Assembly (NCBI GenBank): GCA_012295275.1
Contig: CM022673.1
Location: 14,372,788-14,436,787 of the forward strand
From: Chrysomallon squamiferum
Taxonomy: Eukaryota; Mollusca; Gastropoda; Neomphalida; Peltospiridae
Reading direction: 5' to 3'
DNA: 64,000 bases
Each line of letters opens with the position of its first letter. Within the stretch, counting starts at the first letter, position 1. The position numbers and the translations under genes are program-made. Under the pieces are notes generated by a model, which ran no database searches, was not told where the DNA came from, and was given only the letters and a program-made list of their open reading frames with translations. Of the stretch, positions 19,801-25,800 are shown piece by piece.

Positions 19801-22800
19801 TATAACTACTACTACTACTACTATGGTTATTATTATTATTATTATTATTATTATTATTGTTATTATTATTATTAGTTTTACATATTTGAAACATATACTG
19901 ACTGTATAAAGGGTGTTACATATTTCAGATAGCTACTGGGATGGTGGTGTGTACATTCGTATCTGCACCTATCATGTTTATCTCTGCTAAGATGATGACT
20001 GTGGTTGTAAACAGTGAACTGGATTATCGCAGTCTGCTTTTCATCAGTTTTTTTTCACCACAACATTTTTTGTTGTGTGAGTCTAATCCAAGTTCTATTT
20101 CAAAAATAATACATTATTATTATTGTTTGTTGTTGTTAATACATTATTAGTATTATTTGTTGTGTGAGTATAATACACATTATTAGTATTATTTGTTGTT
20201 GTTTTCATAATTATTATTAGTATTATTTGTTGTGTGAGTTAATACACATCATCAGTATTACTTGTTGTGTGACTACTACTACTATTATTATTATTTGTTA
20301 TTATTATTATTATTGTTATTATTATTATTTGTTGTGTGAGTATAATACACATTATTAGTATTATTTGTTGTGTGAGTATAATTCACATTATTAGTATTAT
20401 TTGTTGTGTGAGTATAATTCACATTATTAGTATTATTTGTTGTGTGAGTATAATACACATTAGTATTATTTGTTGTGTGAGTATAATACACATTAGTATT
20501 ATTTGTTGTGTGAGTATAAACATCATCAGTATTATTTGTTGAACTGGACATCATCAGTCTTATTTGTTGTGTGAGTATAATACACATATTAGTATTATTT
20601 GTTGTGTGAGTATAATACATCATTAGTATTATTTGTTGTGTGAGTATAATACACATTATTAGTAGTATTTGTTGTGTGAGTATAATATTATTGATATTAT
20701 TTGTTGTGTGAGTATAATACACATCATTAGTATTATTTGTTGTGTGAGTATAATACACATTATTAGTATTATTTGTTTTGTGAGTATAATACATATTAGT
20801 ATTATTTGTTGTGGGAGTATAATACACATTATTAGTATTATTTGTTGTGGGAGTATAATACACATTATTAGTATTATTTGTTGTGGGAGTATAATACACA
20901 TTATTAGTATTATTTGTTGTGTGAGTATAATACATATTATTAGTATTATTTGTTGTGTGAGTATAATACATATTAGTATTATTTGTTGTGTGAGTATAAT
21001 ACACATTATTAGTATTATTTGTTGTGTGAGTATAATACATATTAGTATTATTTGTTGTGGGAGTATAATATTATTAGTATTATTTGTTATAATTATGTAA
21101 TATGTCATATTAGTATTATTTGTTTATATATATATATTCATTATTAGTATTATTTGTTGTGGGATATAATTTATTAGTATTATTTGTTGTGTGAAATATA
21201 ATACATGTTATTATCTATTATTTGTTGTGTGAGTATAATACATATTAGTATTATTTGTTGTGTGAGTATAATACACATTATTAGTATTATTTGTTGTGGG
21301 AGTATAAGACACATTATTACTTACGTTATATCTCTATTGGTATCTGTCTGTCTATCTAAAGTAGTATCTGTGTAGCTAGATATCTAACTACCTGCTTACT
21401 TTTCTCTATATATGTCTGTCACTCTGTATATAATTATGTTATATGTCATGTTACTACATGGTTTATATATATATTCAGTTGTAACAGTGATATTTAAGTG
21501 TATGTAAATAATATGTTAATCTGTTAGGTCTGGGTGATGGGTGTGTTGTTTCTCAGTGGACAGTGTGTGTGTGTGTATATATATATATTCAGTTATCACA
21601 TGGTGATATGAAAGTGTATGTAGATAATATATTGATGTGTTGTTTTCAGGTGTGGGTGATGGGTGTGTTGTTTCTCAGTGGACAGTGTGTGTGTGTGTGT
21701 ATATATATATATATATATATATATATATATATATATATATATATATATTCAGTTATCACATGGTGATATGAAAGTGTATGTAGATAATATATTGATGTGT
21801 TGTTTTCAGGTGTGGGTGATGGGTGTGTTGTTTCTCAGTGGACAGTGTGTGTGTGTGTGTGTGTGTGTATATATATATATATATATATATATATTCAGTT
21901 ATCACATGGTGATATGAAAGTGTATGTAGATAATATATTGATGTGTTGTTTTCAGGTGTGGGTGATGGGTGTGTTGTTTCTCAGTGGACGATGGAAGAGA
22001 ATTCCTCACAGATTCACCATGTGTCTTATTTTGTGTCATGTGAGTTGAAACACACCTGTAATCAAAACTTTGAAACCTTCAGTGCTTTGTTATGTCACCT
22101 GTGATGAGGACAATACACTGATATTCAGTGCATTCAAGTAAATGGATATTTAAATTTAATTTAATTTAATTTAATTTAAATTAATTTAATAAGACAATAG
22201 ATGGGCTAATACTGTTAATGACAGATTATTATTTTTATTATATAAATGAAAAAAAAAAATCATATGAGTCACACATGTTGTTTATGTTATTTATTTCTGT
22301 GTTTCAGCTGATAAGCTGTATTGGAATGGTCATGTACTGCAAAAACCAGGATGTTGTGCTGTGGAGACAGTACCTGCAAATGGTTTTGCTGCTCATTGGT
22401 GCCTTCGGTGCCCGGTGCTGTACATCGATGGTTGCCATGGTGATGTGCCTGATTCACACGCGCAGTTTGTGTTACATATTCCGTGCCCAAGTCTGGCTTC
22501 TCTTCTTTGGGTTAGGGTAGGGACAGTTTTTTTTTGTTTTTTTTTAATGTTTGTTGTTTTTGTTGTTATTATCATTACAGTTAGTTAAATTGTATCATCA
22601 GACAGAACTGGCAGTGTTTAAAGTTTGCCTGTGTGTAAAGCTTGCTTTTTTTTAACTCTGTTGTAATACATTATTTTTTGTTTAAACAGAACTGTTGTAT
22701 TTTTCTGGCATTAACTATTGCATTTACTAAGATGGGGGTTTTTTTGTGATTAGATAAAGGTAATAATAAATAATTTTTATGTTTCAGGGTTCCTGTTATA

Positions 22801-25800
22801 ACAGTTGGCCTTCTGTTTGTTTGTGGTCACCAGCACATAGTACATGAAATAGACCCGTCTTTTCACCTGGGAAAAACACAGGTAAATGTAGTACATGAAA
22901 TATACCTGTCTTTTCACCTGGGCAAAACACAGGTAACCACAGTACATGAAACTGATCCATCTTTCACCTGGGTCACACCCAGATAAATGTAGCATGGAAT
23001 ATACCCATCTTTTCACCTGGGCAAAACACAGGTAAACATAGCCCATGAAATTAGATCCATCTTTTTGCCTGGTTGACCCAGATAAATGTAGTACATGAAA
23101 TATACCAGTCTTTTCACCTGGTCAAAACACAGGTAAATGTAGTAAATTGTTCATGAAATAGACACATATTTTCACGTTGGTGACACAAATAAATGTAGTA
23201 CACAAAATAGACCTATCTTTTCACCTGATTGACACACAGGTAAATACAGTTCATGTAAGCTTGGAGGTATACAGGTTCTACCTGAATAGTCAGTGATGTT
23301 TATTGTATTAATTCAGTCTATATGTTCTGTCTGTATACTGACTGGTTTATTTTGTTATTTCAGTCTATATTTTCTGTCTGTATGGTGACTGGTATATTTT
23401 GTTATTTCAGTCTATATTTTCTGTCTGTATGGTGACTGGTATATTTTGTATTTTCAGTCTATATTTTCTGTCTGTATGGTGACTGGTATATTTTGTTATT
23501 TCAGTCTATATTTTCTGTGCTGGTTCTGCTGATAAACATCATAATGACCATCACAGCACTGATTATCAGACAGCGAAATGATCGTCTGTCCACCAAACAC
23601 TTTCCTCAAGAAGAGACCAGCCCCAGGGTTCAGAAAGGACCACTCCTTAACCACACCCAGTGTTCTGACTCATCAGATCTTCTCATCCCAGAACCAACAC
23701 AGAGAAACGAGTTTCCTGACCGTGACAAATACCAGTCATGTGAAGACACGGACATTTTGTCAGGTATTTGTGACCCTCTCTGCCAAAATAAGCTGTACTG
23801 TTTAGTTCTAAACACAAAGTAACTAATTTTAATTAAACATTAAAAATGTTAAAATTTTCATTAAAATTAAGTGCTTCTGGTATTCCTTTTTGAAAGCGGT
23901 ACAACATTTTTGTATGGAAGTTATATCTTTATCTCGTAACAAAAATTTTAGTATAGAGTTTGTTTATCTGAATTTCTTTTTTTTACTTTTTTTTCTTTTC
24001 TTTTTTGTTAATTCAGAATATTACATATTTATTTTTATTCAAGATGTGAAATAAATTTTAAATATTTACAATATAGAAGACATAATTCTGAATTTTAATA
24101 TTTGCAATCAAATACAGAAAGAGTTGATTTATTCAATAAGTAATTTTAATTGAAGGTGTGGGGTAAATTTGACTGTTTTAGATCAGAATATAGAAGACAT
24201 AATTCCGTTTCCGACTCAGTCTCTCGTTGACAGTGATGAGTCGAGTTCTGAGTCGTCCCTCGCTGCCGAGACATTGCTGGCGCAGGGCATCAACGAGCGG
24301 ACGTGTCTGCTGGGTCAGTGTTCATCCGAGCAGCGACGTCAGTGTCACGGCAGACTCCAGACTTACCTAGCTGACACCGTGACGCGCGACGATGCCGTGA
24401 CTCAGTCTAAACAGAGTTCCCACGATTCCTTGCAAGACGAATACCAGACTGGACATCATTTGGTGCTGATACTTCTGCTGTTGATGTCCATGTTCATTGT
24501 AAGTGGCTTTTTTAAACTTCGTTCAACAGTATCTTAAAGTATTAATGGGTTTTTAGTAATTAAAGAAAGAAGTAAAATAAAGTCTCGATTCTTGTCAATG
24601 TTTCATCTCTAATTTTATCTTTAAACAAAACTTTAAGATATGAATTACTTTGTTAATTTCTGATATACTGTTTATTAATTATCTAGGTGTCCTTATGAAT
24701 AAATTGAAACTCTTAATAATGATTTAAAGAAGAAATAGGTTTATCTTCGACTTTTCAGTTTATAAATGTAGAGAAAAACAGCTAAGACATGATTAAATAT
24801 TTCAGGGACTGTTCCTGTGTATGTGGCGGATGTTTAACAAACATCCAACTGGAATTTACATCGAGGTTGAGTTTCTGGATGGAGTTTTTAATTACGGACA
24901 GGTAAGAATCTGGCATGATAAAAATAAGATCACATCTGATTATCTTACACCAGAGAGAATAGAAAATAAAGAAAGTGAAAAGAAATGACAGAGAAAAATA
25001 ATGAGAATCAGTGAGGTTGTAAAACAATGTAAGAGACAGCTAGACAAACCCATGTCCTGAGAGACACAGAATGACAGAGAGACAGACAGACACAGAGATG
25101 TGTTAACAGTATACGTGTATGGAGGATGAATGTTAGAGTAGGTTTTCTGATTTTATAGAGAGCAAATTTTTGTATGATTTAAATGAACAGACAAACATTT
25201 TAAAAAGTTTAATTATTATTTTTTTTATTTTTCAGGGTTTTCTGATATTTGCTGTGTTTGGTTTTGACACCAAATTAATGTTTTCTCCTTTAGTCAGAAG
25301 GTACGTACTTCTTGCATCAAATTTTTCTCTTCTTTTCCCTGCATACTTGAGATATTTTCAAAATGAGAAATTTATTCTGAAGTTGTAGAGGGAAAAAAGA
25401 AACAATGAACAAGAACGTAAAATGAAAGAATATTTAATAACAGAATAACTGATTTTGTTCAGTGTCTGAAGTGAGTATGTGTACAGTGACTGCATCTGTC
25501 ATCTTGTCAGTTAAGTGTAAACAGTTAATGAAAGACAACAATGGAAAATTTGGGACTTGCATTGTTTGTTAATGAGCTGTACTTCTCTATGCATTAAAGC
25601 CATACATGTGACTTAGTTAAAGTATATTTTATAGTAGAATAAAAAGCCTACATTATTAATTATTTTAATTTTCAAGAACAGTTTTTTATGTTTTCTTTTA
25701 GTAAAGATTAATCTCAACTTTGATAATTTTGTCCTGCCTAACAAATAATTTTAATTATTTTACTCATATAATTATTTTTATGTGACCTGAACTCTTTAAA

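Follow-up and report, generated by a model that had tools for sequence, protein, structure and literature searches.

Two introns of the GPR155 gene in the gastropod Chrysomallon squamiferum carry, at both ends, tandem arrays built from their own splice junctions, with exon end plus donor repeated on the left and acceptor plus exon start repeated on the right. From the sequence of the single assembly analyzed, we assign these four arrays to the "mirages", a term used in lancelets for minisatellites lying across 5' or 3' exon-intron boundaries (PMC3087553, PMC3902484). In this genome the rate at which splice junctions are copied roughly equals or falls somewhat below that of intron segments and far exceeds that of exon segments. 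The copying probably reflects ordinary growth of intronic minisatellites, tolerated at junctions since the exon-proximal copy would still serve.

Junction arrays in introns 5 and 8 of GPR155

The window, by which we mean the whole stretch of 64,000 nucleotides analyzed, encodes on its plus strand a protein whose spliced model spans 16879..30508 in 14 coding exons. Exons 1 to 7 lie at 16879-17263, 17779-18063, 18791-18905, 19367-19544, 19929-20076, 21956-22039 and 22308-22516, and exons 8 to 14 at 22788-22881, 23505-23763, 24182-24498, 24806-24901, 25236-25300, 29670-29810 and 30292-30508. The model protein is GPR155, the lysosomal cholesterol signaling protein LYCHOS (E 7.8e-164 against the LYCHOS/GPR155 structures in PDB), and the closest protein found, from Gigantopelta aegis, is a GPR155-like sequence that aligns with 86% of the query at 80% identity. 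The source genome comprises 404.6 Mb in 22 contigs. Arrays account for 2502 of the 11037 intron bases of GPR155, making its introns richer in minisatellites than the segments sampled outside the window, where minisatellites form 6.2% of 198,335 bases. Long runs of the trinucleotides TTG, TTC and TTA occupy 17283-17644, starting about 20 bases past the exon 1 donor.

Intron 5 (20077-21955) and intron 8 (22882-23504) each have a donor array at the left and an acceptor array at the right, all on the plus strand. Array 1 (20066..21319; 20107-21319 by TRF) repeats the end of exon 5 and its donor in units of about 33-36 bp; with at most 5 mismatches of 20 allowed, 30 junction-motif matches are found at 20066-21306, the exon-adjacent one counted in, and TGTTGTGTGAGT is kept in 21 of the 30. 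Because TRF puts the array start at 20107, the exon-adjacent copy is regarded as a diverged partial one, alike in 24 of 32 bases, and the exon 5 border is covered only by this partial copy. Array 2 (21464..21989 by TRF), with units of 122-146 bp, contains four copies of the acceptor plus the first 34 bases of exon 6 at 21521-21989, three of which share 41 bases without a mismatch. Array 3 (22835..23246; 22835-23144 by TRF) is degenerate, its units of about 50 bp joining the last 47 bases of exon 8 to the donor; seven matches at 22860-23246 are obtained when up to 12 mismatches of 29 are allowed, the match at 23169 being very weak, and GT is lost in some copies. Array 4 (23301..23518 by TRF) has a 47 bp unit and five copies of the acceptor plus the first 14 bases of exon 9, at 23308-23518. 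TRF arrays cover three of the 26 splice borders of GPR155.

The first-pass annotation of this DNA had described four arrays combining exon sequence with a splice junction, and both TRF and the motif copies (30, 4, 7 and 5) bear it out. It had also called the two introns consecutive, which they are not: introns 6 (22040-22307) and 7 (22517-22787) lie between them, devoid of junction arrays and with a single period-5 run as the only TRF result. Divergence among the units of an array is graded, and in intron 5 as in intron 8 the consensus unit at the left end is unrelated to that at the right. An origin of array 1 in a dispersed satellite or mobile repeat was rejected, its unit being nearly confined to its own locus; a search of the whole genome, leaving out very common words, gave 14 matches, 13 of them in the array and one, at 79%, on contig C2.

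The ancestral end of exon 5

In the exon 6 reading frame, the array 1 copies encode IISIICC before the donor in 14 of 30 cases and HISIICC in 7 of 30, while the exon-adjacent copy encodes HHNIFCC. At the orthologous site, Gigantopelta and Aplysia have IISIICC, and variants occur in Haliotis, Patella and Lottia. The match between the intronic copies and the ortholog IISIICC indicates that the array 1 unit derives from the ancestral exon end, which is better preserved in these intronic copies than in exon 5 itself. At 20046-20076, beside array 1, the end of exon 5 is offset by one base from the exon 6 reading frame, at a place where the ortholog is intact; the offset is either a consensus error next to the array or a real change. 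An alternative in-frame donor for exon 5 was sought and rejected, as from 19991 to the stop at 20148 GT occurs in phase 0 only at 20001, 20004 and 20007, all within the conserved exon.

Junction copying at splice borders of other genes

The sample of other genes consisted of exons of myosins, dyneins, thiolases and histidine phosphatases in 49 segments outside the window. The 119 of 189 exon anchors with enough flank were used, leaving out the in-window segment and one stop-rich phosphatase match, and gave 235 borders, 94 of which were set aside for weak splice scores. Two families dominate the remaining 141 borders (dynein 72, myosin 51, thiolase 12, phosphatase 6). Scored by TRF containment, 5/141 borders fall within arrays, against 120/1194 intron positions (60-1000 bp from the border, ten offsets summed) and 1/282 exon positions (60 or 100 bp inside), control positions that are not independent of one another.

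A further count asked for the 32-mer at each junction to recur within 600 bp with 23 or more matching bases, after removal of four sample borders and two GPR155 borders, that of array 2 among them, as low in complexity. Recurrence was found for 9/137 borders, 120/1045 intron interiors and 2/280 exon interiors (P = 0.11 for border versus intron, with fewer at borders; P = 0.001 for border versus exon). Stricter thresholds gave 8/137 versus 100/1045 (P 0.21) and 7/137 versus 81/1045 (P 0.38) for borders versus introns. In GPR155 alone, 3/24 borders and 172/724 intron positions scored (P 0.32); the border count would be 4/25 with the array 2 border, which the low-complexity filter had dropped. 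Mismatched flanks reached the threshold in only 1/627 cases, so the junction copying in the GPR155 arrays lies beyond chance. The 32-mer test replaced a 24-mer test whose complexity filter had dropped 12 of the 26 GPR155 borders, including all four array borders; that version presented the same picture (borders 7/110, introns 41/496, exons 1/212, mismatched flanks 0/346). A small kinesin set (0/12 borders, 0/62 controls) says little, because its regions were picked for closely spaced exons.

Inspected by hand, 10 of the 141 borders have tandem junction copies. These are the nine 32-mer matches, minus an acceptor on C4 (offset -509, probably chance), plus two acceptors below threshold. Six are donor mirages (C2:9931360, C1:44155707, C13:26351045, C13:26344182, C4:9212190 and C1:48366787) and four are acceptor mirages (C1:44155438, C1:48371329, C7:35979796 and C13:22040740); for C13:26344182, the chosen border possibly lies a unit downstream of the actual border, both being inside the array. 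The first-pass annotation had proposed comparing exon borders with intronic positions across the genome; among these 141 borders, recurrence of border-containing arrays holds up, and an excess over introns does not appear.

The placement of array edges shows some structure. Within 45 bases of the border on the exon side there are 4 exon-proximal edges (0.63/kb), compared with 60 in the intron at 51-1000 bp (0.46/kb); edges are denser 6-25 bp inside introns, with 5 edges or 1.77 per kb. In GPR155, four arrays overlap exons by at least 6 bases, where random placement predicts 1.5-2.0 (P 0.045 or 0.127, depending on the overlap allowed). Given the dense edges at 6-25 bp and the overlap excess in GPR155, arrays may be mildly drawn to borders.

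Comparison with known boundary repeats

The first-pass annotation knew of no repeat class defined by splice junctions; the lancelet mirages are such a class. They are described in Adh3 and in the globin genes BflGb6 and BflGb9, with TnC and PGBD5 added by PMC3902484, and in the cases cited have units of 10-160 bp, leave regular splicing undisturbed and vary in length between haplotypes or somatically (PMC3087553, PMC3902484). In these accounts the name is applied to lancelet genes only. The GPR155 arrays share the tandem boundary-spanning units, the repeated AG and GT signals and the intronic location of the lancelet examples (PMC3087553, PMC3902484). Their units are of minisatellite size (about 36, 122-146, 50 and 47 bp for arrays 1 to 4) and, in arrays 2 to 4, carry 34, 47 and 14 bases of exon across the boundary; array 1 spans the boundary only by way of its diverged partial copy (24/32) and the IISIICC match. 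GT is kept in 48 of 61 extra copies and AG in 14 of 15, window and other genes pooled. Unlike the lancelet cases, as these sources describe them, the host is a gastropod and two introns of one gene are hit at both ends; the comparison with intron background made here is likewise absent from the descriptions consulted (PMC3087553, PMC3902484). Among the matches listed in the open-licence literature, we found no report of boundary minisatellites in a mollusc.

Human internal tandem repeats at exon-intron boundaries, which alter gene structure, resemble the GPR155 arrays in being minisatellite arrays placed at such boundaries (De Grassi and Ciccarelli 2009, PMC2812944). The human cases, as described there, involve recent segmental duplications, variable repeats and new introns, whereas no new intron is seen in GPR155. 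A plant intron gained through boundary duplication also has duplicated sequence across an intron-exon boundary (PMC4974935). In that account a single duplication yielded a new intron; in GPR155 the copies are numerous and come without a new intron, and the units at one end of an intron bear no relation to those at the other.

Origin of the arrays

Tandem duplication, presumably by replication slippage or unequal crossing-over, would act throughout a genome whose introns abound in minisatellites, and a fraction of the arrays would happen to cover an exon-intron border. A duplication straddling the border would leave the protein intact while the exon-proximal splice site stays in use; surplus junction copies would fall into the intron, free to multiply and probably close to neutral. 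Purifying selection would bar arrays from exon interiors and not from borders. The protection of exon interiors (2/280), and its absence at junctions, fits this explanation and with it one of two ideas in the first-pass annotation, that extra junctions are tolerated as only one is used. A further array, at 30455..30770 on the plus strand (TRF, 5.0 copies), overlaps exon 14 and repeats a 64 bp unit composed of the last 54 coding-exon bases, stop codon included, and 3' UTR. The same reasoning covers this array, since any stop codon after the first is without effect.

The other idea, a local process (driven for example by transcription, R-loops or splicing factors) that preferentially duplicates junction-centered segments, could draw on the four borders affected in two introns of one gene and on the edges clustered 6-25 bp from borders, with the random-placement P of 0.045-0.127 in GPR155. 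We consider it improbable: it finds no support at the 141 other borders, which show no excess over intron interiors (5/141 versus 120/1194 by TRF, 9/137 versus 120/1045 by 32-mer), nor in GPR155 itself (3/24 versus 172/724), and the stop-codon array involves no splice junction. That the extra junctions are functional, tuning or diversifying splicing through an added in-frame peptide, for instance, would agree with the GT and AG kept in most extra copies and with the second donor of array 3, use of which would keep the frame and add 17 codons (51 bases). Nevertheless, the other extensions examined in arrays 2 to 4 mostly meet stops or shift the frame, and copies in array 3 lose their GT, so that a functional role seems distinctly improbable.

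Misassembly at or near the arrays might be suspected from the one-base offset in exon 5 beside array 1, where consensus quality may be low. Graded unit divergence within arrays, arrays of the same kind on other contigs, and array 1 units that match the exon end of the ortholog make an artefact very improbable, even if copy numbers may still be wrong. Boundary repeats have also been tied in the literature to intron gain (PMC3087553, PMC2812944, PMC4974935), and introns 5 and 8 could on that account be recent gains, made when an exon segment with both splice sites was duplicated in tandem. Such an origin predicts matching intron ends. The end units being unrelated, with no one segment present at both ends, gain from a single duplicated segment was rejected, and we give intron gain hardly any weight. 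Tolerated growth of intronic minisatellites remains our preferred explanation.

Extra splice sites and their consequences

The retention of GT and AG in most extra copies implies that the decoy sites are not undergoing erasure. The exon-proximal junction is presumably the one used. Use of the second array 3 donor would lengthen exon 8 by 22882-22932, 51 bases that are in frame and open for 17 codons, making this extension a candidate alternative splice form; the remaining extensions examined in these arrays (2 to 4) run into stops, frame shifts or lost GTs. Across the sample (L001-L085) plus the window, donor arrays have 2-27 copies and acceptor arrays 2-5, a post hoc difference (two-sided P 0.07, or 0.24 without the window) that is no more than suggestive of a kinetic limit. 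Arrays of this kind offer a natural test of how the spliceosome chooses among up to about 30 near-identical sites.

Mirages in a mollusc, recurring at about the background rate of minisatellites, would make a countable and roughly neutral process of what has been a curiosity confined to a few genes. More tentatively, and with considerable doubt, we suggest that splice-junction copying is pervasive (10/141 borders) and near neutral, and that arrays may outlast the exon end from which they came and act as its reservoir. If copying is pervasive, extrapolation would place thousands of decoy splice sites beside real ones. If arrays outlast their source, an array may supply exon ends and eventually new introns, as array 1 illustrates with IISIICC kept and the exon copy decayed.

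Other arrays of the window

The first-pass annotation had counted the arrays at 30455 and 53632 as further junction cases. The former straddles a stop codon and not a splice site. The latter (53632..55100, plus strand, by TRF; unit 28 bp) abuts a donor in an acid-phosphatase-like gene identified by eye only; its unit, also read by eye, opens with GTAAAT at the donor GT (53633) and includes no exon sequence. Of these window genes, the family searches picked up one thiolase exon and no phosphatase exon, and genes other than GPR155 were for this reason read by eye only. On that reading, an array at 2593-2777 begins about 4 bases into an intron of a thiolase-like gene, and one at 43462-43738 begins about 60 bases into an intron of another minus-strand gene. 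An array at 63562-64000, with units of 132-180 bp carrying the motif TGTAAGTATG, extends to the end of the window.
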